A stretch of 64,000 bases of DNA from Pseudomonas saliphila. GTDB taxonomy: Bacteria > Pseudomonadota > Gammaproteobacteria > Pseudomonadales > Pseudomonadaceae. The DNA lies in NCBI RefSeq assembly GCF_008638345.1, contig NZ_VTVA01000004.1, forward strand, positions 62,001-126,000, in the 5' to 3' direction. The notes below the pieces were generated by a model that saw only the letters and a program-made list of their open reading frames with translations, did not search any database and was not told the origin of the DNA. A program made the position numbers and the translations under genes. Within the stretch, counting starts at the first letter, position 1. Every line of letters begins with the position of its first letter. Below are positions 6,343 through 47,066 of the stretch, piece after piece.

Positions 6343-7487
6343 CGCTCAATAATGGTGACGTTGGCCTGGCCACCGCCTTCGCACATGGTCTGCAGGGCGT
6401 AACGGCCGCCGCTGCGCTCCAACTCGTGCAGCAAGGTGGTCATCAGGCGTGCGCCCGTGGCGCCGAGCGGGTGGCCAAGAGCAATGGCGCCGCCGTTGAC
6501 GTTGGTTTTTGCCGGGTCGTAATCCAGTTCTTTCTGCCAGGCCATAACTACCGAGGCGAAGGCTTCGTTGATCTCCACCAGATCGATGTCGGCCATGCTC
6601 ATACCCGCGCGTTGCAGCGCTTTACGGGTGGCGGCAATGGGCGCCGTCAGATGCCAGATCGGGTCGTCGCCGAGCACGGTCAGGTTATGAATTCGCGCGC
6701 GTGGCGTGAGGTTGTAGCGTTTGAGCGCGGCTTCCGAGACCACCAACATGGCAGCCGAGGCGTCGCAGGTCTGACTGGACACGGCGGCGGTAATGTCCGG
6801 AAACTGCGGATCGACCGGCTCCAGCGAGGCCATTTTTTCAAGGGTCGTCTCGCGAGGCGTTTCGTCATGGCTAAGGCCGTTACAACCGACTATCTCGCGC
6901 TGAAAGCGTCCCTCGGCGATAGCGTGGAGTGCACGCCGGTGGCTTTCCAGAGCAAAGGCTTCCATGTCTGCACGGCTGATATTCCAGTGGCTGGCGATGC
7001 GCTGAGCTGAATAGAACTGGTTGACCGGCTGGTCGCCAAAACGCGCCTGCCAGCCCTGGCTGCCGGAGAATGGATCGGGGAAACCCAGTGGCTGCCCGGC
7101 GAGCATGGCGGAAGAAATAGGAATCTGCGTCATGGTTTGTACGCCGCCGACGGCGACCACGTCCTGGGTCCCGCTCATCACAGCCTGCGCGGCAAAATGC
7201 ACCGCCTGCTGGGATGAACCGCACTGCCGGTCGACAGTGGTGCCCGGTACATTCAGTGGCAGGCCCGCGGCGAGCCAGCTGGTGCGGGCGATATCACCAG
7301 CCTGCGAGCCAATGGTGTCGACACAGCCAAAAATCACATCGTCGTATTCGTCGGCGGGAATCGCGTTGCGCTCTACCAGCGCCTTGAGCACGTGGGCACC
7401 GAGATCAATCGCGTGCACGTTCGACAGCGAGCCCTTGCGTCTGCCTGTCGGCGTGCGCAACGCGTCTACGATATAGGCTTGTGGCAT
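6336..7487 (-). CDS. fadA6: FadA6-like thiolase of steroid-ring degradation
   Basis: A 383-residue thiolase with Cys89 in [10 protein letters not shown], His339 in [10 protein letters not shown] and Cys369 in [14 protein letters not shown]. The CEGGGQAN ending is typical of the FadA5/FadA6 group. Its position between the Ipd genes and the FadE30-like pair points to FadA6, which removes acetyl-CoA during C/D-ring beta-oxidation (inferred from family and context). The ATG follows CGGAGA and begins 2 bp after the preceding ACAD stop. Confidence 0.85.
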
Positions 7488-19739: not shown

Positions 19740-19824
19740 CCATGTGATAAAGAGCCCCGACCATCAGGTGACAAGAATGCGGGCTGCGACAGCAACCTGA
19801 CTGGAATACCGGGGAGCAATGAAC

Positions 19825-20505
19825 ATGACAACAATTAACATGGGCACCATTGGCGTGATTGGCGGCACTGGAAACCTTGGAGCCGCTTTGGCCCAGCGCT
19901 GGATCAAGGCCGGACACCAGGTGCTGATCGGCTCCAGGGACGCAACCAAGGCTCAGGAAAGTGCCGCACAGCTGAGCCAAAAACTGGGGGTCGCCGTAGG
20001 CGCCGGGGACAACCGCAGCGTGGCGGAACAGGCTGATCTGCTGGTGATGGCCGTCCCCTTCGCTACCCAGGCGGCGGTCATTGCCGACATTCGGGCCGCC
20101 GCACAGGGCAAGATCGTGGTCGATACCACAGTGCCGCTGATGCCGCCGAAGGTGATGCGCGTGCAACTCCCGGAAGAAGACTCTGCAGCGGTACGCGCTC
20201 AACACCTGTTTGGCGCCGATGTACGTGTTGTCTCGGCCTTTCACAACGTGGCGGCGCACAAGCTGGCCACTGACGAGGAAGTAGCCTGCGACGTGCTGGT
20301 CTTTGGTGATGACGCCGACGCCCGCGCGATTGTGGTCAAGCTGGCGGATGACGCAGGCCTGCGCGGACTGCATGCCGGTGCCCTGACTAACTCTACTGCA
20401 GCGGAAGCGCTGACCTCGATTCTGATTTTCATGAACAAGTACTACAAAGTTGATGGTGCCGGCATCCGCATCAGCGGAGAGCTGGTCATGAATCCCGACA
20501 ACTGA
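19825..20505 (+). CDS. npdG: NADPH-dependent F420 reductase (Fno/NpdG family)
   Basis: A 226-residue Rossmann protein: GTIGVIGGTGNLGAALAQRW at the N-terminus, then GSRDATKA, whose Ser-Arg fits the 2'-phosphate of NADP. The family moves hydride between NADPH and coenzyme F420, so it supplies F420H2 to F420-dependent enzymes. The open frame has an earlier ATG at 19819, but GGGGAG is spaced correctly only for the ATG at 19825. It directly precedes cofE and cofD, which makes the F420 reading much safer than a generic NAD-binding oxidoreductase. Confidence 0.85.
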   Translation: MTTINMGTIGVIGGTGNLGAALAQRWIKAGHQVLIGSRDATKAQESAAQLSQKLGVAVGAGDNRSVAEQADLLVMAVPFATQAAVIADIRAAAQGKIVVDTTVPLMPPKVMRVQLPEEDSAAVRAQHLFGADVRVVSAFHNVAAHKLATDEEVACDVLVFGDDADARAIVVKLADDAGLRGLHAGALTNSTAAEALTSILIFMNKYYKVDGAGIRISGELVMNPDN

Positions 20506-20515
20506 GCGACCCGCC

Positions 20516-21283
20516 ATGCTCAACAGCGTCCAGTTTCAGGCCTTGGAAAATATCCCCGAAATCACAGCCGGGGATGATCTGTCGCGCATCATCCGACAGG
20601 CGCTGGCGGAGGCCGAGCTGATCCTTGAGGACAGCAGCATACTGGTCGTAGCGCAGAAGATTGTGTCTAAAGCGGAGGGACGGCTAGTCGACCTAGCCAG
20701 CGTCTCGCCCTCACCTCAAGCCCATGAATATGCGCGCATCACCGGCAAGGACGCGCGTCTCGTCGAGCTGGTCCTGGCCGAGTCCAGCAGCGTATTGCGT
20801 GCCGTACCCGGCGTCATGATAGTTCGTCATCGGCTCGGCTATGTAATGGCCAATGCCGGGATCGATCAATCCAACTTGCCCGATAACACAAAGGGAACCC
20901 AGGCCCTGCTACTCCCCCTTGATCCCGGCGCGTCGGCGCGAGCCCTGCACGCCGGCCTTACCACGCGCAACGGCGGCCATCCGGGCATTATTATTTCGGA
21001 CAGCTTCGGCAGGCCGTGGCGCAACGGCGTAGTCAACATCGCCCTGGCCTCCGCTGGCATTCCGGCGCTGATCGACCAGCGCAACGGCAGTGACCGCCAT
21101 GGGCGCACCTTGCAGAACACCCTGGTAGCCTTCGCCGATGCGGTGACCGCCGGCGCGGGCCTGGTCATGGGCGAAGCCAGTGAGGGGACTCCGGTAGCGC
21201 TGGTCAACGGCCTGCGTCCGTCAGCTGCGCACAACGATGCCGCGGCGCTAGTCAGGCCCCTTGAAGCGGATTTGTTCCAATGA
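20516..21283 (+). CDS. cofE: Coenzyme F420-0:L-glutamate ligase
   Basis: A 255-residue CofE. Recognisable segments are VVAQKIVSKAEGRLVDL, the SDSFGRPWRNGVVNIALASAG core cut at 1000 (IISDSFGRPWRNG) and GEASEGTPVALVNG. It adds gamma-linked glutamates to F420-0 with GTP. It lacks the C-terminal nitroreductase domain found in actinobacterial FbiB, so it cannot itself reduce dehydro-F420-0. It lies 10 bp after the F420 reductase gene and overlaps cofD by ATGA. The ribosome site is weak (TGAGCG), pointing to coupling. Confidence 0.9.
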   Translation: MLNSVQFQALENIPEITAGDDLSRIIRQALAEAELILEDSSILVVAQKIVSKAEGRLVDLASVSPSPQAHEYARITGKDARLVELVLAESSSVLRAVPGVMIVRHRLGYVMANAGIDQSNLPDNTKGTQALLLPLDPGASARALHAGLTTRNGGHPGIIISDSFGRPWRNGVVNIALASAGIPALIDQRNGSDRHGRTLQNTLVAFADAVTAGAGLVMGEASEGTPVALVNGLRPSAAHNDAAALVRPLEADLFQ

Positions 21284-22224
21284 ACGGGGGTCGCATATTA
21301 GCCCTCAGCGGCGGGGTCGGCGGCGCCAAACTAGCCGATGGACTGATGCACGCCTGCCCCGGCGGTCGACTAACCCTGGTGGTGAATACCGGAGATGATT
21401 TCAACCATCTGGGCCTGCACATTTCCCCGGATATCGATACCGCCCTGTATACCCTGTCTGGTTTCTCCAACCCGCAAACCGGCTGGGGCCGGCGCGACGA
21501 AACCTGGTCCTTTATGCAGGCGCTGGAACAGCTCGGCGGCGACACCTGGTTCCGTCTCGGCGATGCGGACCTGGCATTGCACGTGGAGCGCACGCATCGA
21601 CTGGCAGCCGGCGCCTCGCTGAGCGAGATTACGGCCGAGTTCGGCACGCGCCTGGGCATTAGCGCGCAGATACTGCCCATGAGCGATGACCCGGTACGTA
21701 CCCGGGTCAGTACTGACATGGGCGAGTTGGATTTTCAGCACTATTTCGTTCGCGAACAGTGCCGCCCCCAGGTTCGCCGGATCGAATTCAGCGGGGCTGA
21801 GACGGCGCGGCCAGCGCCCGGCGTTGTGCGCGCTCTGCAGAATGGGGATCTCGACGCCATCATCCTGTGCCCGTCCAATCCCTATCTGAGCATCGCACCC
21901 ATCCTTGCCGTTACCGGCATGCGCGCATTACTGCGTGCAGCTGGCGTGCCGGTCATCGCGGTATCGCCACTGGTTGGCGGACAGGCGGTAAAAGGGCCAA
22001 CGACCAAGATTATGAATGAGCTGGGCCTGTCGGTGAGCGCGCTGCAGATCGTGCAGGACTATGCCGGGCTGATCGATGGCTTCGTGCTCGATAGTCGTGA
22101 TGCACAGCTGCGCGACCAGATAGATTTGCCCGTCGCGATAGTCGACACGCTCATGCACTCCCCCCTCGACCGCCAACGCGTCGCCCAACAGACCCTGGCC
22201 TTCGCTACCACCCTACGGGCCTGA
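21280..22224 (+). CDS. cofD: 2-phospho-L-lactate (or PEP/3-PG) transferase CofD
   Basis: A 314-residue CofD. It begins with LSGGVGGAKLADGL and has NTGDDFNHLGLHISPDIDT and CPSNPYLSIAPIL, typical of enzymes that transfer the phospho-acid from its GDP-activated form onto the deazaflavin Fo. It overlaps cofE (ATGA). Its stop codon is built into a GC hairpin (22217-22237), after which an AT-rich gap precedes cofC. Full length with no disruption. Confidence 0.9.
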   Translation: MNGGRILALSGGVGGAKLADGLMHACPGGRLTLVVNTGDDFNHLGLHISPDIDTALYTLSGFSNPQTGWGRRDETWSFMQALEQLGGDTWFRLGDADLALHVERTHRLAAGASLSEITAEFGTRLGISAQILPMSDDPVRTRVSTDMGELDFQHYFVREQCRPQVRRIEFSGAETARPAPGVVRALQNGDLDAIILCPSNPYLSIAPILAVTGMRALLRAAGVPVIAVSPLVGGQAVKGPTTKIMNELGLSVSALQIVQDYAGLIDGFVLDSRDAQLRDQIDLPVAIVDTLMHSPLDRQRVAQQTLAFATTLRA

Positions 22225-22237
22225 CTCTCTCAGGCCC
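22217..22237 (+). terminator. Hairpin spanning the cofD stop codon
   Basis: GGGCCTGA (22217-22224) pairs perfectly with TCAGGCCC (22230-22237) around a five-base loop; the TGA is the cofD stop. There is no T-run directly after it, so it may be a partial terminator or an mRNA-stability structure rather than a strong stop. Confidence 0.5.
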
Positions 22238-22421
22238 AGCCCTTCCCTACCCAGCAAAAACCGAGCTTTTTCAATTACTGTCTGAACTGCGTCTTCTATA
22301 AAATATAAGCCCTTGTTTTATAACATTTTTTTACCTAAAAACAAAAACTGAAAAAACTCGGAAAGCGAGTAGCGGTCCGCGCTCACGGTTGCTTGAATGG
22401 CTGCAAGTGAGGAGCGCAAAC
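22238..22421 (+). promoter_or_regulatory. AT-rich control region before cofC-fbiC
   Basis: This gap is far more AT-rich than its surroundings. It contains a long-range inverted repeat (CCGAGCTTTTTCA 22261-22273 with TGAAAAAACTCGG 22349-22361, one mismatch). Inside that lies a shorter one (TATAAAA 22297-22303 with TTTTATA 22316-22322). A promoter for the cofC-fbiC-cys part of the operon is likely here; I cannot fix its -35/-10 boxes with confidence. A structured 5' leader is also possible. Confidence 0.5.
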
Positions 22422-22472
22422 ATGACTATTCATCCGTCTCAACGCACCAGCATTGCCCGGGAACTGCCATGA
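22422..22472 (+). CDS. 16-residue leader peptide coupled to cofC
   Basis: A short frame (MTIHPSQRTSIARELP) starts with ATG 22422 after the strongest ribosome site in the region, GAGGAG at 22410-22415 or so. It ends in TGA overlapping the cofC ATG as ATGA (22469-22472). cofC itself has only a poor site (GGGA). Translation of the leader may therefore deliver ribosomes to cofC. The peptide has no run of one amino acid, so classical attenuation is not suggested. It is inferred from signals only. Confidence 0.45.
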   Translation: MTIHPSQRTSIARELP

Positions 22473-23098
22473 GCTGCTGGGCATTGATACCGCTCAAAGC
22501 GCCAAGCCAAGGCAAGACCCGGCTGAGCCAAACGCTGGACAGCCGCAGCCGCACACAGCTGATTGAAAACATGCTGATGCGCGTACTCGCCGCGCTGGCT
22601 GGCAGTTACCTGGTGGACCGGATCGCCATTGTCGGCATGCTGCCAGACCGTTGCCGCGCTGACATCCGACACCTGCCCGATCCCGGCACAGGGCTGAATG
22701 GCGCGCTGTCGGCGGCCAGTCAACAGCTGCAAGCGACAGGGGCCCAGGAATTGCTGGTGCTGCATGCCGATCTACCCTTACTGCTCAGTGAAGAGGTTGA
22801 CCAATTCATTCTTGCCGGCCGCCGCCAAGGCATGGCGCTGGCCAGCGATCACCATGCGCTGGGCACCAATGCCATATTCCTCAGCCAACCGGACGACTTT
22901 GCATTCAGCTTCGGACCTCACAGTCTGACGCGCCATCTGACCCTGGCCGCCGCCCGGAATCTGCAGCCTGCCATGAATCAGGCGCCGGGCTTGATGTTTG
23001 ACGTCGATACCGCGCAGGACCTGCAAACGCTGATCGAAGCAGCGCCTCCTTTCTATATCCCCGAGTCAATCTCGCATTGGAGTCCAGCCCATGCATGA
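22469..23098 (+). CDS. cofC: Phospho-acid guanylyltransferase CofC
   Basis: A 209-residue nucleotidyltransferase with LIPLKAPSQGKTRLSQ at the start, LVLHADLPLL (metal-binding Asp) and HHALGTNAIFLSQP, characteristic of CofC/FbiD. It activates 2-phospholactate, PEP or 3-phosphoglycerate with GTP for CofD. The frame is open upstream to 22397, but ATG 22469 gives the family N-terminus and overlaps a leader peptide. It overlaps fbiC by 8 bp. Which phospho-acid it prefers cannot be read by eye. Confidence 0.87.
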   Translation: MSCWALIPLKAPSQGKTRLSQTLDSRSRTQLIENMLMRVLAALAGSYLVDRIAIVGMLPDRCRADIRHLPDPGTGLNGALSAASQQLQATGAQELLVLHADLPLLLSEEVDQFILAGRRQGMALASDHHALGTNAIFLSQPDDFAFSFGPHSLTRHLTLAAARNLQPAMNQAPGLMFDVDTAQDLQTLIEAAPPFYIPESISHWSPAHA

Positions 23099-25556
23099 AC
23101 ACGGTCATTACCTATTGGATAAGGTTCGCTCCGGCATATTGTTGAATGCCGACGAAATTTATCTGTTAGCCGCCGAGGCCGCGCCCAGCGAGCTGATGGC
23201 CTGTGCTGAAGCCCTGACTCTCGAGGGTCACGGCCGCCGCATCGGGTATTCACGCAAGGTGTTTATTCCCCTTACGCGGCTGTGCCGGAACCATTGCGGC
23301 TACTGCATCTTCGCCACGTCCCCGAAAAAAGTACCCAGCCCCTACCTGAGCCCCGAGCAAGTCCTGGAAATTGCCCGCGCTGGTGCCCGCGCGGGCTGCC
23401 GTGAGGCCCTGTTCACCCTGGGTGAGCGCCCGGAGCTGCGCTATCCCCAAGCGCGAGAGGCACTGGATGCCATGGGTTATGCGGACACCTTCGCCTATGT
23501 CGCAGCGATGGCCCAACTCGTGTTCGAGGAAACCGGCCTGTTACCGCATATCAATCCGGGCACCATGACCCGCGAGGAGATGGCGCCGCTGCGCACGGTC
23601 TCTGCCTCTCTGGGCATCATGCTGGAATCCACCGCGGAGCACCTGCATCAGCGGGGAGCGGCGCATTGGCGCTGCCCCGACAAACTGCCTCAGGCGCGCC
23701 TCGACACCCTGCGACATGCCGGCGAGCTGTCGGTGGCGATTACCTCGGGCATTCTGATCGGCATAGGCGAAACCCGTGAAGAGCGTATCGACGCCCTGCT
23801 GGCGCTGCGTGAGTTGCACCAGCAATACGGTCATCTGCAGGAAATCATCGTGCAGAACCTACGCGCCAAGCCCGGCACCCTGATGGCCGATGCCCCGGAA
23901 CCGGACATCGCCGATCATGCCTGGACCATTGCCATTACCCGGCTGATCTTCGGCCCCGGCATGTCGATCCAGGCACCACCGAATCTGCGTCCGGGTGAAC
24001 TGGGCCAACTGATAGGCGCTGGGATCAATGACTGGGGCGGTATTTCCCCGGTGACGCAAGATCATGTCAATCCCGAAGCAGCCTGGCCGGAGCTCGATGC
24101 ACTGGCTGCCGACACGGCGCGCGTTGGCCGCCAACTGGTCCAACGGCTGCCGCTGATTCCGGCGTACCTTCGTGACCTGGACCGCTGGGTTGACCCAGCC
24201 ATGGCCACAGCCATCCGGCATGCGGCCGATGCCCGCGGCTTTGCCCGCACCGACGGCTGGTTCGCTGGGCGCGGGGATACCCCCGAGCCTGAAGCCTTGC
24301 GTTACCTCAGCCGGAGGGCCGAGCACGTCAGCGCATCCATTGAAATCACCCGTATTCTCGAACGTGCCTGCGCTGGCGATCCGCTCAACGAGGCCGAGAT
24401 CGTACAGCTGTTTCAGGTGGAGGGTGCTGATCTGCAGGCCGTTATCCAGGCCGCCGATGCACTGCGCCGTTCCACTGCGGGCGACACCCTTACCTACGTG
24501 CGCAACTGCAATATCAACTACACCAACATCTGCCAGTACCGCTGTGGTTTTTGCGCCTTCGCCAAGGGCAGCAGCGCTGCTCACCTGCGTGGCCCAGCCT
24601 ACCAACTCGATGCCGACGCCGTCGCGCTGCGTGCCGAGGAAGCCTGGTTACGGGGAGCGACCGAGGTTTGCATGCAGGGCGGCATCCACCCGCACTACGA
24701 CGGCAATACCTATCTGGAGCTGGTGGCCGCAGTCAAACAGGCCGTACCGGATATGCACGTACACGCATTCTCGCCGTTGGAAGTGCTGCACGGGGCCGAG
24801 ACCCTGGGGCTGAGCCTGACGCAGTATCTAACCAGGCTGCATCAGGCCGGGTTGCGCTCCCTGCCCGGCACCGCCGCGGAAATTCTGGATGATGACGTCC
24901 GCGCGATCATCTGCCCGGACAAGCTTAATACCGAGCAGTGGCTTGAGGTCATGCGGGCCGCGCATCAGGTCGGAATCCGCAGTACCGCCACACTGATGTT
25001 CGGCCATGTCGAAGAGCCCAAACACTGGGCTCGCCATCTGTTGCGCGTGCGTGAGCTGCAGGCAGAGACCGGCGGCTTTACCGAATTCGTGCCCCTGCCC
25101 TTTGTGCATATGGAATCGCCGATATGGCACAGGGGGCAGGCACGTTCAGGGCCCACCTTGCGTGAGGCGGTACTGATGCATGCGGTCAGTCGCCTGGCGC
25201 TGCATCCATTGATACCGAATATCCAGACGTCCTGGGTAAAGATGGGTCGCGAGGGGGCAGCGCTGTGTTTGCAAGCTGGCGCCAACGACCTCGGCGGCAC
25301 CCTGATGTACGAATCCATCACCCGTGCCGCTGGCGGCAGCAATGGCCAGCTGCTGGATGACCCTGAACTACAAGCGATTGCTGCCAAGGTCGGACGACCT
25401 CTGCTACGCCGAAACACCCTCTATCAGACAAGCACTGACGACCGCACCGGATCCGCGGTAGTCGCGAATCTGATCTCTTTGCGTGAGCTCATCCCCCCAC
25501 TCCCGAGCGCGCAGCTTCAGACCGAACTCGCACCATCCAATAACAATATGAGGTAA
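23091..25556 (+). CDS. fbiC: Fused CofG-CofH, Fo (deazaflavin) synthase
   Basis: An 821-residue protein with two radical-SAM halves. The N-terminal CofG-type cluster ligands are Cys65, Cys69, Cys72 (LCRNHCGYC). The C-terminal CofH-type ligands are Cys481, Cys485, Cys488 (NICQYRCGFC). Together they build 7,8-didemethyl-8-hydroxy-5-deazariboflavin from tyrosine and a flavin precursor. Fusion is the arrangement seen in actinobacteria; many archaea and cyanobacteria have separate genes. It starts inside cofC (8-bp overlap) and ends 3 bp before cysD, tying Fo synthesis to the sulfate-activation genes. Confidence 0.93.
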   Translation: MHEHGHYLLDKVRSGILLNADEIYLLAAEAAPSELMACAEALTLEGHGRRIGYSRKVFIPLTRLCRNHCGYCIFATSPKKVPSPYLSPEQVLEIARAGARAGCREALFTLGERPELRYPQAREALDAMGYADTFAYVAAMAQLVFEETGLLPHINPGTMTREEMAPLRTVSASLGIMLESTAEHLHQRGAAHWRCPDKLPQARLDTLRHAGELSVAITSGILIGIGETREERIDALLALRELHQQYGHLQEIIVQNLRAKPGTLMADAPEPDIADHAWTIAITRLIFGPGMSIQAPPNLRPGELGQLIGAGINDWGGISPVTQDHVNPEAAWPELDALAADTARVGRQLVQRLPLIPAYLRDLDRWVDPAMATAIRHAADARGFARTDGWFAGRGDTPEPEALRYLSRRAEHVSASIEITRILERACAGDPLNEAEIVQLFQVEGADLQAVIQAADALRRSTAGDTLTYVRNCNINYTNICQYRCGFCAFAKGSSAAHLRGPAYQLDADAVALRAEEAWLRGATEVCMQGGIHPHYDGNTYLELVAAVKQAVPDMHVHAFSPLEVLHGAETLGLSLTQYLTRLHQAGLRSLPGTAAEILDDDVRAIICPDKLNTEQWLEVMRAAHQVGIRSTATLMFGHVEEPKHWARHLLRVRELQAETGGFTEFVPLPFVHMESPIWHRGQARSGPTLREAVLMHAVSRLALHPLIPNIQTSWVKMGREGAALCLQAGANDLGGTLMYESITRAAGGSNGQLLDDPELQAIAAKVGRPLLRRNTLYQTSTDDRTGSAVVANLISLRELIPPLPSAQLQTELAPSNNNMR

Positions 25557-25559
25557 CCA

Positions 25560-26459
25560 ATGTCACTCACTCATTTGCAACGGCTTGAGGCCGAAAGCAT
25601 CCAGATCATCCGCGAGGTGGTCGCCGAATCCGACAACCCGGTGATGATGTATTCCATCGGCAAGGACAGCGCAGTCATGCTACATCTGGCGCGCAAGGCG
25701 TTCTATCCCGCCGTGCCGCCGTTTCCGCTACTGCACGTAGATACACGCTGGAAATTCCGCGAGATGTACAGCTTCCGCGAGCGCATGGCAGAAGAAACCG
25801 GCATGAAACTGATCGTCCATATCAACCCCGATGGCGTCGCCCAGAACATCAACCCCTTCGATCATGGCTCTAGCGTGCATACCGACATCATGAAAACCGA
25901 AGGGCTGAAACAGGCCCTCGACAAATACGGTTTTGATGCGGCTTTCGGTGGCGCGCGCCGCGACGAGGAGAAATCCCGGGCCAAGGAACGAGTGTTCTCA
26001 TTCCGCTCCACAGCCCACCGCTGGGACCCGAAGAATCAGCGCCCGGAACTGTGGAAGCTATACAACACGCGAAAGCAGAAAGGCGAATCGATCAGGGTCT
26101 TCCCCCTGTCGAACTGGACCGAACTGGATATCTGGCAATACATCCATCTGGAGAGTATTCCGATCGTGCCGCTGTACTACTCCGCCGAGCGTCCTGTGGT
26201 CGAGCGTGACGGCACGCTGATCATGGTCGATGACGAGCGCATGCCACTTGAGCCGGGCGAAACGCCAGTAATGAAGAAGGTGCGCTTTCGCACCCTGGGG
26301 TGCTACCCACTGACCGGAGCGGTTGAGTCTGAAGCCTCAACCCTGCCAGCCATTATCCAGGAGATGCTGCTGGCCCGGACCTCCGAGCGCCAAGGCCGAA
26401 TGATTGATCACGATGCTTCAGCGTCCATGGAAAAGAAAAAACAAGAGGGGTACTTCTGA
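25560..26459 (+). CDS. cysD: Sulfate adenylyltransferase small subunit
   Basis: A 299-residue Cys[21 protein letters not shown] holds the SGGKD-type ATP loop, and [18 protein letters not shown] and [13 protein letters not shown] are family hallmarks. With CysN it makes adenosine phosphosulfate from ATP and sulfate, driven by GTP. It follows fbiC after 3 bp with its own site (TGAGGT), and its TGATG overlap couples it to cysNC. A housekeeping assimilation role cannot be excluded, but the next genes suit sulfate conjugation. Confidence 0.93.
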
Positions 26460-28366
26460 TGTCCCATGTCTCAGAAATGATTTCCAACGATATCGATCAG
26501 TACCTTCAAATGCATGAGCACAAAAGCCTGCTGCGTTTTATTACATGCGGCAGCGTGGATGACGGCAAGAGCACCCTGATCGGGCGCCTGCTGTTCGAGT
26601 CCAAGATGCTGTTCGAGGATCAGCTGGCCGCCATTGAGGTTGATTCGCGTAAATACGGCACCCAGGGCGAAGCCATGGACTTTGCCTTGCTGGTCGACGG
26701 CCTGGCCGCCGAGCGCGAACAGGGCATCACCATTGATGTAGCTTACCGGTTTTTCTCCACCGACAAACGCAAGTTCATCGTCGCGGATACCCCCGGCCAC
26801 GAACAATACACCCGCAACATGGTGACCGGAGCATCCACCGCCGATGCCGCCGTTATGCTGGTGGATGCGCGCAAAGGCCTGCTAACCCAGACACGCCGTC
26901 ACAGCTATCTGGTTTCACTGTTGGGCATTCGTCATGTTGTGGTGGCGATCAATAAGATGGACCTGGTGGATTATTCCGAAGAAGTCTTCCAGAACATCGT
27001 CAATGATTACCGGCAACTGGCCGAGCACCTCGGCTTGAGCAGTGTGACCTACATTCCGATGTCGGCCTTCAAGGGCGACAATATTACCGAGCCAAGCGCC
27101 AATATGCCCTGGTATCAGGGCCAGCCCCTGATGCACTTCCTGGAGCACGCCGTGGTCGATGCCGATGCGGGCGTCGACACCCCGTTTCGCCTCGCTGTGC
27201 AATGGGTCAACCGGCCGAATCTGGATTTCCGTGGCTTCACCGGCAGTATCGCCAGTGGCCGCATCCGCCCGGGTGACCGTGTCCGCGTGCAGCCTTCGGG
27301 CCAGGAAAGTACCGTGGCCCGCATTGTCACCATGGACGGCGACCTGCCTGAAGCCGTGGCCGGTCAATCCATCACGCTGACGTTAACGGATGAGATCGAC
27401 ATTTCGCGGGGCGATGTCATTTCCAAAGCTCTCGCACCCGCTGAAATCGCTGACCAGTTTGAATGCACCCTTACCTGGATGCACGAGGCACCGCTGCTGC
27501 CAGGCCGGCCTTACCTACTCAAAATCGGCAGTCGCACCGTCACCGCAACGATCACCGAAATCAAATATCAGGTGAACGTCAACACGCTGGAGCACTTGCC
27601 AACCAAGACTCTGGAACTGAATGCCATTGGTGTCTGCAACCTGAGTATTGACCGTCCGATTGCCTTCGACCCTTACCGTGAAAACCACGACACCGGCGGC
27701 TTCATCCTGATCGATCGGCTCAGCAACAATACTGTAGGTGCGGGCCTGCTGCATTTCGCCCTGCGTCGTTCGCAGAATATTCATATGCAAGCAGTGGACA
27801 TCAACAAGGCCGCCCGTTCGCGCCTGAATGGTCAGAAGAGCTGCGTACTCTGGTTCACCGGCCTGTCTGGCGCCGGCAAATCAACCATCGCCAACGAGCT
27901 GGAGAAACAGCTGTTCGCACTCGGTCATCACACCTACCTGCTCGATGGCGACAACGTGCGCCATGGTCTGAACCGGGATCTGGGTTTCACCGATGTCGAC
28001 CGCGTGGAAAACATTCGCCGTATCGCCGAAGTATCCAGGCTGATGGTGGATGCCGGCCTGATTGTCATCAGCGCCTTCATCTCACCCTTCCGCGCCGAGC
28101 GGGATATGGCGCGCTCGCTGGTGGGTGACGGTGAGTTCATTGAGATCCATGTTGATACGCCATTGGCAATCGCCGAGGAACGCGACGTCAAGGGGCTCTA
28201 TCGCAAGGCGCGTGACGGTCAGCTGAAAAATTTCACCGGCATCGACTCGCCCTATGAGCAGCCCGAATCGCCAGAGCTGCGCATCGACACGACCGAGACC
28301 AATGTCGATAGGGCCGTGCAGCAAATCATGGCGTGCCTGCGTGAACGCGGCATTCTGCCACTGTGA
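26459..28366 (+). CDS. cysNC: Bifunctional sulfate adenylyltransferase GTPase / APS kinase
   Basis: A 635-residue fusion. The N-terminal CysN GTPase has GSVDDGKST at 31-39, [12 protein letters not shown] and NKMD. The C-terminal CysC kinase has GLSGAGKS at 468-475, followed by [16 protein letters not shown]. The product is PAPS. Fused CysNC is often found where PAPS is needed for sulfotransferases rather than only for assimilation. It is followed by a 9-bp-stem hairpin (28374-28397) and cysQ. Confidence 0.94.
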
Positions 28367-28373
28367 TGACTCC

Positions 28374-28397
28374 CGCGCAGCCGGCGTCGGCTGCGCG
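28374..28397 (+). other. Intercistronic hairpin between cysNC and cysQ
   Basis: CGCGCAGCC (28374-28382) pairs with GGCTGCGCG (28389-28397) across a six-base loop. No T-run follows, so it is more likely an RNA-stability element or weak attenuator than a terminator. Confidence 0.55.
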
Positions 28398-28417
28398 GCC
28401 ATTTGAAGGAAAGCAAT

Positions 28418-29212
28418 ATGGACACCACCACCCTCAATGGTTTACTCGAGGCGTTGATCCCTATCGTCCGCACCGCTGGTCAGGGCATCATGGACATCTA
28501 CGCCGGTGATATCGCCGTGCGTACCAAGTCGGACTCATCGCCCGTAACTGTGGCAGATGAATACGCTGAATCACTGATCCTGCCTGGCCTGCAGGCGCTG
28601 GATCCATGGATCCCCATCGTTTCTGAAGAGCAGGCAGAAGTGGGCCTGCTCCCGGAAACCGGACAGCGCTTTTGGCTGGTCGACCCGCTGGACGGAACCA
28701 AGGAATTCATCAACCGCAACGGTGAATTCACCGTCAACGTCGCTTTGATCGATGCAGGCGAACCGGTGCTGGGCGTGGTCCTGGCCCCTGCCCTGGGTCG
28801 GCTGTTCGCTGGCGTGCGTGGCCACGGAGCCTTCATCGAGGAGAACGGCACGCGGCGCCCGATCAGCTGCCGCGTCGCTCCCGAGGCCGGCTTGACGGTC
28901 GTTGCCAGCCGCTCCCACGGCGATGCCCACGCGCTGGAGCAATTCCTGGCTGGACGCAAGGTAGCCGCCCAAACCAATGCTGGATCCTCACTGAAGTTAT
29001 GCCTGGTTGCGGCGGGGGAAGCCGACGTCTATCCGCGCCTTGGGCGCACGATGGAATGGGACATCGCAGCCGGTGATGCTGTGCTGCGCGCGGCTGGAGG
29101 TCGCCTGCTGACCCTTGATTCGCAGCCCATGCAGTACGGCAAGACAGACTTTGCCAATCCACATTTTGCAGCCTGGGGGCTCGCGCCTGACGCATCTAGG
29201 CCGTCTGGATGA
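28418..29212 (+). CDS. cysQ: 3'(2'),5'-bisphosphate nucleotidase CysQ
   Basis: A 264-residue inositol-monophosphatase-fold enzyme with metal site DPLDGTKEF at residues 89-97 and WDIAAGDAVLRAAGG near the end. It removes the 3' phosphate of PAP, the by-product left when a sulfotransferase uses PAPS. The frame can open from TTG 28403, but ATG 28418 has AAGGAAA at good spacing. Its place between cysNC and a sulfotransferase completes a PAPS make-use-recycle set. Confidence 0.92.
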   Translation: MDTTTLNGLLEALIPIVRTAGQGIMDIYAGDIAVRTKSDSSPVTVADEYAESLILPGLQALDPWIPIVSEEQAEVGLLPETGQRFWLVDPLDGTKEFINRNGEFTVNVALIDAGEPVLGVVLAPALGRLFAGVRGHGAFIEENGTRRPISCRVAPEAGLTVVASRSHGDAHALEQFLAGRKVAAQTNAGSSLKLCLVAAGEADVYPRLGRTMEWDIAAGDAVLRAAGGRLLTLDSQPMQYGKTDFANPHFAAWGLAPDASRPSG

Positions 29213-29277
29213 TTCGCCACGGCCCTGAACAGGATGCACTGCCAATTTGACCTTCCACAAGCAATAACAAGGCGGGG

Positions 29278-29952
29278 ATGATCATGACGTCACGTTCGAC
29301 CAGTTTGCGCCGGCAGCCAAGCCAATCCCGTGCGGAGGTGACGCTGCGGGCAATTCGCGAAGCTTGCCTGAAAATCCTTGAAGAAGAGGGTCTCAAGCGT
29401 CTGACGACCAACCGCATCGCCGAGGTGGCTGGGGTCAGCATCGGCAGCCTGTATCAGTACTACGCCGACAAACACGCGATAGCAGCCGATATCTGCAATG
29501 AGCTGCTGATGAGTGAACTCGGCGAGGTCAATCGCCTCGATCAACAAACGTTGTTGATGGTGCAGAACTCCCTGGAAGACACCATCGCCTTCTTCGTGCG
29601 CGAGTACATCGCACGCCACCAACGGTTGTATCGCAAACTCAAGGATTTTTACCTTGAGATGCACTGGCACTACAACTTCGAGCATTACGTACGCCGCCGG
29701 CACCCGCGCAAGCTGAGGACCGTGGACTGGCTGCCCTCTGCACTGGAGCAACACCGAGAGTCGATCAACGTGAGTGATCCTCTGCTTGCCGCGACCATGG
29801 TCGTCAATACGCTGGAAGGCACACTGCATGCGACCCTGGATCACAATCCGACATTAATCTTCGAGCCCGCATTCGAGCGCGAGATGGTAGCGCTGATCCT
29901 CAGCTACCTGAAGTTTGCCAACCGCATTAACTTTCCCTCACAACAATTATAA
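29278..29952 (+). CDS. TetR-family regulator
   Basis: A 224-residue repressor-type protein. The N-terminal helix-turn-helix is RLTTNRIAEVAGVSIGSLYQYYADK (residues about 40-64, shown here by its core GVSIGSLYQYY). The C-terminal ligand domain is unconserved. It is only 9 bp before the sulfotransferase gene and probably controls this part of the operon in response to a lipid-like ligand. Its arm QPSQSRAE and HTH resemble the second TetR at 34695-35375, suggesting duplicated regulators with related operators. Confidence 0.85.
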   Translation: MIMTSRSTSLRRQPSQSRAEVTLRAIREACLKILEEEGLKRLTTNRIAEVAGVSIGSLYQYYADKHAIAADICNELLMSELGEVNRLDQQTLLMVQNSLEDTIAFFVREYIARHQRLYRKLKDFYLEMHWHYNFEHYVRRRHPRKLRTVDWLPSALEQHRESINVSDPLLAATMVVNTLEGTLHATLDHNPTLIFEPAFEREMVALILSYLKFANRINFPSQQL

Positions 29953-29961
29953 GGATTGCCC

Positions 29962-31137
29962 ATGCTGTTTTACTTCGACTTCAAGACCTGGCTCGCCATG
30001 ATCAGGCTGGTTGCCAAGGAGCCCAAATCGCGCCATCGCACTGGCCTTTACAAACTGCTGCTGTGGCGCATTCCGGTGCGCGCAGTGTTCCACAGCATCT
30101 GTTTTTTCCTGGACGGCATCCTGTTTCCGAAATTGTGGTTGGTCAAAGTCAAGGAACCGGTTTTCATTATTGGTCATGCCCGCAGCGGCACCACCTTGGC
30201 CCATCGTTTAATGGGTGCAGATGAACGCTTTTCCACCTTCAAATACTACGAGTTGATACTGCCCTCGCTGTTGCAGAAAAAAGTCGTACGACTGATTGCC
30301 AAACTTGATTCAAGTATCCTGGGCCGACGCCTGGAGCGCCGTTTGCAGGCCTGGGAAAAACGTAAATTCGGCCCGACCCAACATATCCACAAGATGGGCC
30401 TGACGATTCCCGAAGAAGACGACCTGATCTATTTCAACTCCTGCGCGTCGGGCTTCTGGGCCACCAAGTTGCCCTATATGGATTCCCTGGATTTCTTCCA
30501 TATTGACCAGCGTCCAGCCGCAAGTCGGCGCCGGCTGATGGACTTCTACCGCAGTTGTGTACGCCGTCAGCTGTACCTGAATGGCGACAACCGGGTTCAT
30601 CTGAGCAAGAACCCAACCTATTGCGGCCGTGTGGAATCTCTGCTGGAAGCCTTTCCCGACGCCCGCATAGTGCTGTTGTATCGCAACCCCTACGAGACCA
30701 TTCCCAGTCTGCTGAAGCTATTGCATGTCAGCTGGAAACTCCAAGGCAACCAGTCTGCAGAAAGCATCCAGAAATCCACCCGTGCAATGATCAACCTGTC
30801 ATACGAGAGCTACCTCCAACCCCTTGAAGTACTCCGCCGGCACCCGGAAACCCCCTGCGCGATTATTGACTATCGCACCCTGACCACCGCGCCCAAGGCA
30901 GCCATGGAGCAGGCCTACGTCGATCTGGGCCTACCGCTTTCTGACGACTTCATGCGGTTTCTTACGACCGAGCAGAACAAGACCCGCAAGCATGAGACCA
31001 CCCATACCTACAGCCTGGCCGAATTTGGCCTGGCCGACAGCGAGATCCATGACCGCCTCGCCCCGCTGTTCGAACGGTTCAACTGGGACGCACAGCAGCC
31101 CTCCCCACAACAAGAAAAGGAGCTAAACCATGTCTGA
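29962..31137 (+). CDS. PAPS-dependent sulfotransferase
   Basis: A 391-residue sulfotransferase of the bacterial Sulfotransfer_3 type. The 5'-phosphosulfate loop is FIIGHARSGTTLAHRLM (residues 68-84), and the 3'-phosphate segment is RIVLLYRNPYETIPSLLKLL (around 235-254). It transfers sulfate from PAPS to a hydroxyl or amine acceptor. Located right after PAPS genes and cysQ and inside a steroid island, the acceptor could be a sterol, bile alcohol or lipid (inference). ATG 29962 follows AAGGAT; it overlaps the DUF1214 gene by 8 bp. Confidence 0.87.
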   Translation: MLFYFDFKTWLAMIRLVAKEPKSRHRTGLYKLLLWRIPVRAVFHSICFFLDGILFPKLWLVKVKEPVFIIGHARSGTTLAHRLMGADERFSTFKYYELILPSLLQKKVVRLIAKLDSSILGRRLERRLQAWEKRKFGPTQHIHKMGLTIPEEDDLIYFNSCASGFWATKLPYMDSLDFFHIDQRPAASRRRLMDFYRSCVRRQLYLNGDNRVHLSKNPTYCGRVESLLEAFPDARIVLLYRNPYETIPSLLKLLHVSWKLQGNQSAESIQKSTRAMINLSYESYLQPLEVLRRHPETPCAIIDYRTLTTAPKAAMEQAYVDLGLPLSDDFMRFLTTEQNKTRKHETTHTYSLAEFGLADSEIHDRLAPLFERFNWDAQQPSPQQEKELNHV

Positions 31138-32536
31138 GATCACCTATCAGGATCCGGCTACAGCTGCCGCCGCCGAAAGCCTACGCGAGGCCTGGAATGA
31201 GCTGTTGGTGCAAATAGGCGACGCGCGCAATGCAATTGACGACCCTCAACTCTGGGCACCGCCAGCGTCACCACGTACGCTGGCCGAAGGCTATCGCTAC
31301 GTGCTTGGCTATTTGTATGGGTCCATTGGCCGTGGTCTCGGGCCAACCGTGGAGAATCCCTATTTCATACGCGCCATCCAGCCGTTGAACCGCTCGACCA
31401 TCGATAATGCAGACGCCATATATCTGACTGCGCCTATAGATGGCAATCACAGCTATACCATCCGCGGCCGTGCGGGCGACACCAGTATCTGGCGTGGCGC
31501 GCAGCCTCTCGCCGGTGTGCGCAAGGCACCACATTATGTGATTTTTGAAACGCCCAGCGGGTTCGCCGGCGATACCGGCAGCATCAAGGAACTGAAGCGT
31601 GGCTCGCGGACCAACTGCGCCATGCTGGACTCAACCACACTGCACGTGAATGCCGATGGCAGCTTCGAGATTTTGCTGGCACCCGAGAAGCCCGCAGGCT
31701 ACCAGGGCAACTTCATGTACACCCGTACCACCCGCCAGCGTAAACAGGAGGACGGCAGCGTGCTCGAGCAGGAATATGTCGCCCAGCAGGTCATGCTGCG
31801 CGAATTGTTCTGCGACTGGGAAAAGGAAGATCTGCTGGACCTGTTCATCTACCGCAACGATCGGCTGGGCATGCCAATCCCGGCCTATAGCGCCGAGACA
31901 GCGGCGGAACAGATCCGCAAGGTCGGCACGCTCACCCGTAATCAGGTGCACTTCTGGAATGAATTCTATGCCGTGGTCTGCGAAGCCTATGGAGACATGA
32001 ATGGCGATGGCGAGCGCTTCATGCCACGCAATGATTTCAACAAGCCCAACGCCGCCTCGCTGGCGACCGCCGGTGGCATGGCCACTAACGTCTATTGCGG
32101 TGGCATGTTCGAACTGCTGCCTGATGAGGCACTGATCATTGAGCTGCACCAACCGGTCGAGCCGATCTACCTGGGCTTCCACCTGGGTAACCTGTGGGGC
32201 GAGTCGCTGGAGTTTGCCAGCCACCAGTCCAGCCTCAATGGCATACAGGGACATCGCGACGCCGATAACATCTACCGCTACGTCATTTCCCACAGCGATC
32301 CGGGCGTAGCCAACTGGGTCGATACCACCGGCCAGTTTGAAGGCTACATGGCGGTGCGCTGGGCTTACCCGGAGAAGCCCATGGACAACCTGCCCTGGGC
32401 CACTGCGAAGAAGGTAAAAGTGGGTGAGGTGCTGGAACACTTGCCTGCGAACACCCAACGCATAACCCCTGAAGAGCGGCGTCACCAGATCGCGATACGC
32501 CAGGAACATGTCCAACGCCGCTACCGGCACCACTAG
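31130..32536 (+). CDS. DUF1214-type protein of unknown function
   Basis: A 468-residue soluble protein with no signal peptide or membrane segment. The C-terminal half (YLGFHLGNLWGES, WVDTTGQFEGYMAVRW) looks like a DUF1214 domain; the N-terminal half begins with an acidic helical region. It overlaps the sulfotransferase by 8 bp (ribosome site AAGGAG inside that gene), so the two are made together. Proteins of this type often sit beside sulfotransferases or lipid-degradation genes, but no reaction is established that I can name. It could be a substrate-binding or hydrolase partner. Confidence 0.6.
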   Translation: MSEITYQDPATAAAAESLREAWNELLVQIGDARNAIDDPQLWAPPASPRTLAEGYRYVLGYLYGSIGRGLGPTVENPYFIRAIQPLNRSTIDNADAIYLTAPIDGNHSYTIRGRAGDTSIWRGAQPLAGVRKAPHYVIFETPSGFAGDTGSIKELKRGSRTNCAMLDSTTLHVNADGSFEILLAPEKPAGYQGNFMYTRTTRQRKQEDGSVLEQEYVAQQVMLRELFCDWEKEDLLDLFIYRNDRLGMPIPAYSAETAAEQIRKVGTLTRNQVHFWNEFYAVVCEAYGDMNGDGERFMPRNDFNKPNAASLATAGGMATNVYCGGMFELLPDEALIIELHQPVEPIYLGFHLGNLWGESLEFASHQSSLNGIQGHRDADNIYRYVISHSDPGVANWVDTTGQFEGYMAVRWAYPEKPMDNLPWATAKKVKVGEVLEHLPANTQRITPEERRHQIAIRQEHVQRRYRHH

Positions 32537-32544
32537 GAACCTAC

Positions 32545-33411
32545 ATGCCCAATATTTTGAGTGATAAGGTCGCCATTATTACCGGCGCTAGCCGAGGCAT
32601 CGGCGCGGCCATAGCCGAGCGCTTCGCCGCCGAAGGTGCCCGCGTAGTGATTACCGCACGGACCAGTGAACCCGGCGGCAGGCTTCCCGGTTCCCTGCAA
32701 GAGGTCGCCGAGCGCATTCGTGCGCGGGGCGGCCAGTGCCTGAGCATCATCGGTGATCTGGCCAAGGAAGAAGATCGCGAACGCATCATGGCGCAAACGC
32801 TGGAGCACTGGGGCGGCGTCGATATCCTGGTGAACAACGCTGCCTTCGCTCGCTTCAGCCCCACGCGTGAACAGCAAGCCAAGCATGTTCAGCTGTCACT
32901 GGGGATCAATTTCATTGCCCCGCTGCACCTGAGCCAGCTGGTTATTCCATCCATGGTCGAACGCGGCGGTGGCTGGATTCTGAACCTGTCCAGCGACACG
33001 TCGCGCAAGCCCCGGCATGGCCCCTATCCCGCCGATGATCGGACATACCGTTTTCACAACACCGCCTCCCCCAGTTTGTACGGCTCGACCAAGGCGGCAC
33101 TAGAACGATTGACCGCGGGCTGGGCGATGGAGCTGGCTAGCCAATCGATTGCCATCAACAGTCTGGCGCCAGTAGAGGCCGTTGCCAGCGAAGGCGCGCT
33201 CGACAGCGGCAGCATTGACGACCAGGCGTTCTTCGAACCCGTGGAAGCCGTTGTGGAAGCGGCTCTGGCCCTCTGTTCAGGCCCGCAGCAATGTCTGACC
33301 GGCCGCAATTCCTATAGTTTGAACCTGCTGGAAGAACTGGGCTTGCGCGTGCGCTCGCTGGACGGTCTGACCGAGCTCGACAACATTCCCGCCGCGCCCT
33401 TCAAAGGCTGA
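32545..33411 (+). CDS. SDR oxidoreductase
   Basis: A 288-residue classical SDR: TGASRGIGAAIAERF, NNAAF, Ser in NLSSDTSR, and YGSTK with its catalytic Tyr-Lys. An insert after the Ser (RKPRHGPYPADDRTYRF) and a longer C-terminus set it apart from FabG. It probably oxidises or reduces a hydroxyl/keto group on the same substrate as the sulfotransferase. It lies 8 bp after the DUF1214 gene and 15 bp before the F420-type oxidoreductase. Confidence 0.8.
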   Translation: MPNILSDKVAIITGASRGIGAAIAERFAAEGARVVITARTSEPGGRLPGSLQEVAERIRARGGQCLSIIGDLAKEEDRERIMAQTLEHWGGVDILVNNAAFARFSPTREQQAKHVQLSLGINFIAPLHLSQLVIPSMVERGGGWILNLSSDTSRKPRHGPYPADDRTYRFHNTASPSLYGSTKAALERLTAGWAMELASQSIAINSLAPVEAVASEGALDSGSIDDQAFFEPVEAVVEAALALCSGPQQCLTGRNSYSLNLLEELGLRVRSLDGLTELDNIPAAPFKG

Positions 33412-33426
33412 TACCGGAGTAACCTT

Positions 33427-34470
33427 ATGCTGGAAATTTTTGCTTCCACCCCTGAAAACTTAGGGCTACGCGACATCGGCGCCTTCGCGCGCCGGGTCGA
33501 AACCATGGGCTATGACGGCCTGTTCGTGTCCGACGCGATTCATGATGGTTTACTGCTGGCAGGTCAGGCGCTGGCTTCGACTACGAGACTGAAGGTCGGC
33601 ACCTCGGTACTGGTGGCCTTCCCGCGCAGCCCGATGAACGTGGCGCTGGCTTGCTGGGATCTTCAAGGCATGTCCGGTGGGCGTTTTGAGCTGGGGCTCG
33701 GGACCCAGATCAAGCAGAACATCGAAGAGCGCTATTCTGCCCGCTGGCTACCGCCAGCGGCGGGGATGCGCGAATACCTGGGCGCATTGCAGGCGATCTT
33801 TCACAGCTTCCGTACCGGCGAGCGACTGAACTTTGTCGGCGAGCATTATCAGTTCACCCGCCTGCAACCCTTCTTCAACCCCGGCCCGATCGAGGCCCCG
33901 GACGTGCCGCTAATGCTGGGTGCCGTGGGCCCCATGATGCTCAAGCTGGTGGGCTCTACCGCTGATGGCATCCATACACACCCGACGAATACCTCGGTAC
34001 GCTACCTCCAGGAAGTCATTCATCCGCAGATCGCCAATGGACTGGCCGAGCGTGATCCGGCGCGCAAGCGCCCGCTCATCAGCGCGAGCCAGTTTGTCGC
34101 CACCGGCCCGGACGCAGCTACGGTCGCCAAGGAGCGAGAACGCTTCCGTGACATGCTCGCCTTTCTGTTTTCGACGCCCGCCTATCGCGCCAGCCTGGAG
34201 CTGTTTGGCTGGGGCGAGGTAGGTGACGCTCTGCAACAACTGACCCGCAACAAACAATGGGCGGATATGCCTGGCATCTTCACCGACGAAATCCTGGACA
34301 CCTTCCTGGTCAGCGCAGAGTACGGCTCCTTACCGCAGGCAATGGTCTCGCGCTTCAACGGCCTGGTCGACAGGGTGACCCTGACGGTACCAAATGATCC
34401 AGCGAATGATCAGGAGTGCGCCCAGGCGATTAACGCCATTCGTGATGAGGCCCGACGAGGCGACAGCTAA
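33427..34470 (+). CDS. F420-dependent luciferase-like oxidoreductase
   Basis: A 347-residue LLM-class TIM barrel: VETMGYDGLFVSDAIHDG near the start, LKVGTSVLVAFPRSPM, the SGGRFELGLGTQIKQNIEERY segment and DVPLMLGAVGPMMLKL. The pattern is that of the F420-dependent branch (MSMEG_2256-like families, from memory) rather than FMN luciferases. As the last gene of an operon that makes F420 and its reductase, it is the most likely user of F420H2 here. Substrate unknown; a steroid enone or hydroxyl is plausible. ATG follows GGAGTAAC. Confidence 0.8.
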   Translation: MLEIFASTPENLGLRDIGAFARRVETMGYDGLFVSDAIHDGLLLAGQALASTTRLKVGTSVLVAFPRSPMNVALACWDLQGMSGGRFELGLGTQIKQNIEERYSARWLPPAAGMREYLGALQAIFHSFRTGERLNFVGEHYQFTRLQPFFNPGPIEAPDVPLMLGAVGPMMLKLVGSTADGIHTHPTNTSVRYLQEVIHPQIANGLAERDPARKRPLISASQFVATGPDAATVAKERERFRDMLAFLFSTPAYRASLELFGWGEVGDALQQLTRNKQWADMPGIFTDEILDTFLVSAEYGSLPQAMVSRFNGLVDRVTLTVPNDPANDQECAQAINAIRDEARRGDS

Positions 34471-45592: not shown

Positions 45593-45601
45593 AGAGGCTC
45601 C

Positions 45602-46231: not shown

Positions 46232-46280
46232 CGGGTTTCGCCTTTTTTCTGATTGCTCGCGAGCTGCCGGGCTCTCGCCC

Positions 46281-47054: not shown

Positions 47055-47066
47055 GATATTTACCCC

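Follow-up and report, generated by a model that had tools for sequence, protein, structure and literature searches.

Passages in PMC8498797 describe the production of coenzyme F420 in Proteobacteria as biochemically confirmed and name its purpose there as an open question. A 2019 review (PMC6678751) places, in a figure legend, the Sterolibacterium denitrificans genes cofC, cofD and cofE beside genes for an acyl-CoA synthetase, a steroid delta-isomerase and an acyl-CoA dehydrogenase. Here we describe a run of 13 genes at positions 19819-34470 of a 64,000-nucleotide stretch of contig NZ_VTVA01000004.1 from Pseudomonas saliphila (the whole stretch is called the window below). In this run, a complete set of F420 biosynthesis genes is continuous with genes for the formation of 3'-phosphoadenosine 5'-phosphosulfate (PAPS), a sulfotransferase and a luciferase-like oxidoreductase (LLM) of an F420 subfamily (Table 1). 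With modest confidence, we favour the view that the run from npdG to the LLM gene is one functional unit of steroid catabolism that has two dedicated cofactor supplies, reduced F420 (F420H2) and PAPS. The argument is drawn from the sequence, namely gene families and their order, the single recognised F420-type LLM of the genome, the recurrence of the unit elsewhere and a conserved upstream element.

The open reading frames (ORFs) of npdG, cofE, cofD, cofC and fbiC are intact and contiguous. Families were called with NCBIfam profiles against their curated cut-offs, with Pfam in agreement for the F420 genes. FO synthase (CofG plus CofH), CofC, CofD and CofE make up a full pathway set in which each member scores above its cut-off. 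The cofC frame is open from further upstream, but relatives conserve the start MSCWALIP at the likely position given in Table 1, which leaves 244 bp between the end of cofD and cofC. The window lies inside one contig of 350,827 bases in a genome of 4.37 Mb. The host is a gammaproteobacterium. In an RpoB tree of 22 genomes (30 requested, 25 matched and three with partial matches excluded), it forms a sister pair with Pseudomonas linyingensis, at 87% identity. Thus, the original prediction of a complete, intact and contiguous F420 gene set in a gammaproteobacterium, made earlier from the letters of this DNA, is borne out. It remarked on how few uses of F420 are described in gammaproteobacteria; the F420 genes themselves are not rare in the order. 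Of 293 genomes sampled there, 83 give a strong FbiC match and 66 have one above the curated cut-off; strong means E below 1e-100 (a threshold of our own), and some such genomes have cofG and cofH as separate genes. None of the 12 other sampled genomes from the host's family has a strong match, and one has a match at 9.6e-4.

After a gap of three bases, fbiC is followed by eight further same-strand genes, which extend to position 34470 and lie no more than 65 bases apart. The original prediction, sound for the F420 genes, omitted these adjoining PAPS, sulfotransferase and LLM genes, which are the better functional clue. CysD and CysNC make PAPS, sulfotransferases consume it, and CysQ removes the resulting 3'-phosphoadenosine 5'-phosphate (PAP). 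There is a second cysNC elsewhere in the genome (50% identity) and a second cysQ that scores above the cut-off, and the PAPS set of the unit is therefore an extra one. Ordinary sulfate assimilation was considered as the role of these cys genes and rejected because of these second copies and because in relatives the cys genes accompany the sulfotransferase gene (stf) and the LLM gene. The 468-residue DUF1214-like protein falls below the gathering score of PF06742. Its structural model (predicted local distance difference test score, pLDDT, 88.3) matches the uncharacterised entry 6ans, other fold matches are uncharacterised or loosely similar, and the predicted fold is uninformative on mechanism.

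Table 1. Features of the unit and of the cofD-cofC gap (positions in the window)
Feature	Position	Strand	Basis or remark
npdG, NADPH:F420 oxidoreductase (F420H2 supply)	19819..20505	+	TIGR01915 180.7 bits, cut-off 149.8
cofE, F420-0:glutamate ligase, single domain	20516..21283	+	TIGR01916 237.7 bits, cut-off 180.65
cofD, 2-phospho-L-lactate transferase	21280..22224	+	TIGR01819 293.6 bits, cut-off 257.45
two-box element GAGCTTTyTCA ... AAAGCGAGTAG	22263..22372	+	probable promoter/operator of downstream genes
leader ORF, 16 codons	22422..22472	+	stop overlaps likely cofC start (ATGA)
cofC, 2-phospho-L-lactate guanylyltransferase	22397..23098, likely start 22469	+	TIGR03552 148.2 bits, cut-off 105
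fbiC, fused cofG-cofH FO synthase	23091..25556	+	NF006687 1101.9 bits, cut-off 1018
cysD, sulfate adenylyltransferase subunit 2	25560..26459	+	PF01507
cysNC, GTPase subunit fused to adenosine 5'-phosphosulfate (APS) kinase (PAPS formation)	26459..28366	+	PF00009 + PF01583
cysQ, 3'(2'),5'-bisphosphate nucleotidase (would clear PAP)	28403..29212	+	TIGR01331 290.1 bits, cut-off 228.8
tetR, TetR-type regulator	29278..29952	+	PF00440
stf, sulfotransferase (Sulfotransfer_3)	29956..31137	+	PF13469 E 1.4e-24, 88 bits, cut-off 27
DUF1214-like protein, activity unassigned	31130..32536	+	
short-chain dehydrogenase/reductase (SDR)	32545..33411	+	PF00106
LLM, F420 subfamily	33427..34470	+	TIGR03617 340 bits, cut-off 278.15

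The LLM is the probable client of F420. There are four luciferase-family proteins found in the genome, and only that of the unit scores above an F420-subfamily cut-off. The other three, one NtaA/DmoA-type (dependent on flavin mononucleotide) and two MsnO8-type, have F420-subfamily scores far below it. The closest PDB sequences of the LLM are methylenetetrahydromethanopterin reductases, and a genome search with PF01243 gives one match, in a single 217-codon frame that is perhaps pdxH. Across the 293 genomes, a strong FbiC match is present in 53 of the 60 that have TIGR03617 above its cut-off (seven exceptions) and in 30 of the 233 without it, an association that is weakened as evidence in that it may partly stem from shared ancestry. 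The LLM might also work oxidatively, as an alcohol dehydrogenase like Adf, such that F420 serves as the acceptor for a steroid alcohol and NpdG passes the electrons on to NADP. This possibility finds some backing in the presence of npdG in the unit and in a passage of PMC8498797 in which Adf and Fgd are LLM-type F420 reducers. However, the dominant direction of Fno in bacteria is given there as F420 reduction, and the SDR genes of the island could already perform such oxidations, which leaves the proposal very improbable.

Under the view of one unit serving steroid catabolism, CofE, CofD, CofC, FbiC and NpdG would make F420 and then reduce it with NADPH to F420H2, while CysD and CysNC would form PAPS and CysQ would destroy the by-product PAP. 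The sulfotransferase would use PAPS to sulfonate a hydroxyl on a steroid-derived intermediate, and the LLM would carry out an F420H2-dependent reduction, or an F420-dependent oxidation, of the sulfonated or a neighbouring intermediate. The SDR would probably interconvert hydroxyl and ketone, and the DUF1214-like protein may act alongside the sulfotransferase, perhaps on the sulfate ester. From the gene content we infer that the genes are transcribed in one or two units, that both F420 and PAPS are produced, that the substrate is a steroid and that all of these reactions take place. A more specific version, which we consider unlikely, is a sulfonation-activated, F420H2-dependent steroid deoxygenation. 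Perhaps the SDR reduces a ketone, the sulfotransferase sulfonates the hydroxyl, the sulfate leaves with help from the DUF1214-like protein, and the LLM uses F420H2 to reduce the C=C bond. If this were true, actinobacteria with a DUF1214-like/SDR/sulfotransferase triad would run the same route on their own F420.

When genome contigs were scanned with FbiC, 548 relatives were confirmed, and the best 80 loci were retained, some represented by short stretches only. The unit is seen in 8 of these 80 loci. Seven are colinear, namely L006, L007 (Azoarcus sp. Aa7), L008 (Aromatoleum anaerobium), L010 (Thauera sp. 28), L011, L012 (Thauera butanivorans) and L023 (Thauera sp. 2A1), whereas in L013 (P. 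linyingensis) the F420 genes and the cys-stf-LLM genes form two convergent runs. In a ninth locus, L009 (Aromatoleum toluolicum), the F420 genes and the two-box element are present, but the contig ends about 430 bases past fbiC. Hosts of the unit are Azoarcus, Aromatoleum, Thauera, P. linyingensis and metagenome-assembled genomes. In the eight loci, CysD is 84-89% and the LLM 78-85% identical to the window protein. There are 120 listed LLM homologues, and the sources named among them are Halopseudomonas phragmitis, Thauera, P. linyingensis, Rhodocyclales and Rhodocyclaceae bacteria, Denitratisoma sp. DHT3, Steroidobacteraceae, Sterolibacterium denitrificans and a proteobacterium. Locus L008 matches npdG as two separate tblastn pieces (about 6669-7364) and holds about 1 kb of extra sequence between tetR and stf (17.0-18.1 kb). 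Directly upstream of npdG in the window, with 79 bases between, lies a gene for a pyrroloquinoline quinone-dependent alcohol dehydrogenase with a C-terminal cytochrome-type domain (17658-19739). The eight loci with the unit gave no match to a relative of it.

The RpoB proteins of Rhodocyclales are only 66-67% identical to that of the window host, yet FbiC of the window groups with L006 and seven Rhodocyclales-type rows with a support of 95, which makes horizontal movement likely. The tree, made by a quick method, has 49 rows (the window, 43 of the 80 loci and five plasmid sequences). On this sequence evidence, the unit has probably moved between Rhodocyclales and Pseudomonadaceae. The original prediction had also raised a recent transfer from actinobacteria, to be judged from trees of CofC, CofD, CofE and FbiC. 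The FbiC tree does not support it, since the window sequence sits deep among Pseudomonadota and is not nested among actinobacterial sequences, although these are three Actinomycetota rows that serve as outgroup on long branches, over which the program issued a warning.

A conserved two-box element in the gap between cofD and cofC is probably a promoter/operator. The span of the two boxes is 110 bp both in the window and in eight relatives (L006-L012 and L023), and the sequence between them is variable across loci. In L013, where cofD and cofC have no gap, the span is 111 bp and the element is located upstream of cysD rather than cofC. Thus, the element accompanies the cys-stf-LLM run, and elsewhere cofC and fbiC also lie downstream of it. 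The pattern, which was derived from these loci, is found in 10 of 160 loci searched, including the window's own copy. A consensus promoter scan gives one match, at 35446-35419, away from the element.

Between the second box and cofC there is a leader ORF, which starts 49-52 bases past that box in the window and in eight relatives and whose stop overlaps the cofC start in eight of these nine. Seven relatives have a leader of 32-34 codons, and that of L006 shares the cofC reading frame. A riboswitch in this gap was considered and is unsupported. RNAalifold with 10 sequences gives no conserved fold of the element (-1.35 kcal/mol, with one pair kept through two-sided changes), and an Rfam search of 701 bases of the window alone gives a single match, at E 6.9, with none near the cut-off.

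The surroundings of the unit are those of a putative 9,10-seco steroid degradation island. The left flank of the F420 genes is of steroid type (ChsH2/MaoC-, thiolase- and HsaC-like genes), and steroid-type genes appear again at about 44-62 kb. The original prediction of steroid genes on both sides thus holds for the left flank and for this distal part of the right, but not for the immediate right flank, which is made up of the sulfate-activation, sulfotransferase and LLM genes. The contig codes for a KshA-like protein whose best PDB match is 4qdc (1.2e-98) and which no NCBIfam profile matches at 1e-20. It also codes for a delta4-(5alpha)-ketosteroid dehydrogenase-like (delta4-KSTD-like) protein (best PDB match 4at0, 1.2e-105). 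Profiles for HsaA, HsaC and HsaD match contig proteins at E 3.1e-52 or better, all below the curated cut-offs. The best PDB match of the HsaC-like protein is 2zi8, which is deposited as BphC and which we take to be HsaC. Eight of nine relative genomes have a delta4-KSTD-like gene with at least 70% identity. All nine have an HsaC-like gene with at least 68% identity (the P. linyingensis one with an in-frame TGA), a count that covers these nine genomes alone. In the P. linyingensis genome (G007:C13), two of four HsaC-like places have one in-frame TGA. That F420 is made for a steroid step, as originally proposed, is likely in view of the KshA-, HsaA-, HsaC-, HsaD- and delta4-KSTD-like genes on the contig and the recurrence of the unit with such genes; the production of F420 and the specific step are what we infer.

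The sulfotransferase has PDB matches only to 2zq5 (5.5e-14) and 2z6v, which we take to be mycobacterial sulfotransferases. One possibility that accords with these matches is that the unit makes a sulfated lipid or another envelope compound and lies in a steroid island by chance or by way of steroid membrane stress. According to a passage in PMC8498797, the LLM type also includes the F420-dependent hydroxymycolic acid dehydrogenase and phthiodiolone ketoreductase. However, profile scans recognise no lipid-assembly gene among the genes of the unit, and both the HsaC-like genes of all nine genomes and the presence of Sterolibacterium, Steroidobacteraceae and Denitratisoma among the listed LLM homologues speak for steroids, so that we find an envelope role quite improbable.

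At 44507-47801 there are OYE-like (old yellow enzyme), SnoaL-like and two SDR-type genes, which may correspond to the Sor/Hsh/Ste genes of bile-acid degradation. Similar genes lie near a second F420 locus in Azoarcus and Aromatoleum. This locus has the genes npdG-cofC-fbiC in Azoarcus sp. Aa7 (L018:8652-15780), and is extended by cofE and cofD in Aromatoleum anaerobium (L015). A delta4-KSTD-like gene is about 8 kb away from it, and genes of SnoaL-, SDR- and OYE-like type are close by. L018 additionally has CoxG-like and XdhC-like genes, which hint at a molybdenum hydroxylase. Bile acids support growth of Azoarcus sp. Aa7 both aerobically and anaerobically, as a passage in PMC8399759 states.

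The leading alternative, though unlikely, is that the LLM is a plain ene-reductase of ring degradation acting on a C=C bond of an unsaturated 3-keto steroid, whereas the sulfotransferase only tags or detoxifies, such that the two share a promoter and perform separate reactions. Double-bond reduction is known for LLM enzymes of other pathways (passage in PMC8498797). In the bile-acid route, a dehydratase and an oxidoreductase carry out a reductive dehydroxylation (passage in PMC8399759), and the window holds genes of the SnoaL-like, SDR and OYE-like types at 44.5-47.1 kb. Furthermore, no cysD is seen in the other 71 of the 80 FbiC loci within the available stretches, some of them short. However, the LLM gene lies within the cys-stf run in all eight observable loci, even in L013 with its separate F420 run, and a dedicated PAPS supply with PAP removal would be costly for a mere tag.

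The pairing of stf with the DUF1214-like gene extends beyond the unit. There are 27 DUF1214 loci in the order (26 strong matches and one partial; the window's own copy and two weak matches were excluded), and in 20 of them a relative of the sulfotransferase lies within 1.5 kb. Of 27 genomes with a strong DUF1214 match, 22 also have a strong FbiC match, again a count among related genomes. When 20 kb around such a pair was examined in eight cases elsewhere in the order, no match to a cys or F420 gene appeared, and in one of these stretches (L170) the pair lies a few kilobases from SnoaL-like (79% identity), OYE-like and SDR genes. We read this as a more widespread pair, at times with SDR and TetR genes, to which cys and F420 blocks would have been joined in lineages with steroid genes. 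On a Croceicoccus plasmid (L087), a DUF1214 protein adjoins a cytochrome P450, near an LLM annotated as TIGR03857 F420-dependent.

Several observations weigh against a single steroid-directed unit. A location within a steroid island is no proof of a steroid substrate, and TIGR03617 is a subfamily name and not an assayed F420 enzyme. PF04075 (the F420H2:quinone-reductase family) gives no match in the genome, where the absence is not established in that control genomes are silent as well. For the HsaC-like protein, a biphenyl-diol dioxygenase profile scores slightly above HsaC, both below the cut-off, and in P. linyingensis a search at E 1e-50 reveals no delta4-KSTD-like gene. Two loci, L012 and L013, show the unit but no SDR gene in it. 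The seven 20-kb stretches other than L170 show, besides the unit's own genes, weak similarity (25-44%) to acyl-CoA dehydrogenase, thiolase, ligase, dioxygenase or SDR proteins, or none. Finally, on the Tsukamurella plasmid L086, where cysNC and cysD adjoin DUF1214-like, SDR and sulfotransferase genes, the sulfotransferase gives no match from the window protein at 1e-8 and the SDR is closer to another window SDR than to that of the unit. The Tsukamurella parallel is therefore at the family level only.

The occurrence of F420 in Proteobacteria and of cof genes beside steroid genes is already known. We found no prior description of an F420-PAPS-sulfotransferase unit in the open-licence full-text literature. 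That the unit recurs in distant bacteria which also have steroid genes suggests a purpose for F420 in some proteobacteria. Because F420 synthesis is tied to one LLM and a PAPS-fed sulfotransferase in genomes of two distant proteobacterial groups, its purpose could be answered for one lineage by a few deletions. The unit might also reveal a sulfonated intermediate of steroid degradation and give a function to the actinobacterial sulfotransferase/SDR/DUF1214-like triad. We take Rv3531c-Rv3530c-Rv3529c of the mycobacterial cholesterol region to be such a triad, with Rv3529c presumably the sulfotransferase. In a passage of PMC6429209, Rv3529c-Rv3531c are counted with the genes of cholesterol catabolism and described as hypothetical proteins and a possible oxidoreductase.

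The closest described arrangements each share part of this architecture. L086 resembles the window in having the DUF1214-like, SDR and sulfotransferase genes side by side with cysD and cysNC, but identities are low (DUF1214-like 28%, cysD 49%, cysNC 46%), and no F420 gene or LLM is annotated in its stretch. Its DUF1214-like protein has no Pfam match, and its sulfotransferase matches 2zq5, presumably mycobacterial Stf1, at 1.9e-171. The Hsh/Sor system for bile acids likewise removes steroid hydroxyls in bacteria, from genes within steroid clusters. It uses a dehydratase and an oxidoreductase according to passages in PMC8399759, a text in which F420 is not mentioned and the string 'sulfat' appears three times. 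In Sterolibacterium denitrificans, F420 genes adjoin steroid genes as they do in the window, and the passage in PMC6678751 lists no sulfotransferase, cys or LLM gene with them; the word sulfotransferase is absent from the text of that review. Lastly, the window has all five genes of bacterial F420 biosynthesis (fbiC, cofC, cofD, cofE and npdG/fno) above their cut-offs, and differs from that known system in that CofE has a single domain and the genes continue into those for PAPS formation, a sulfotransferase and one LLM client.

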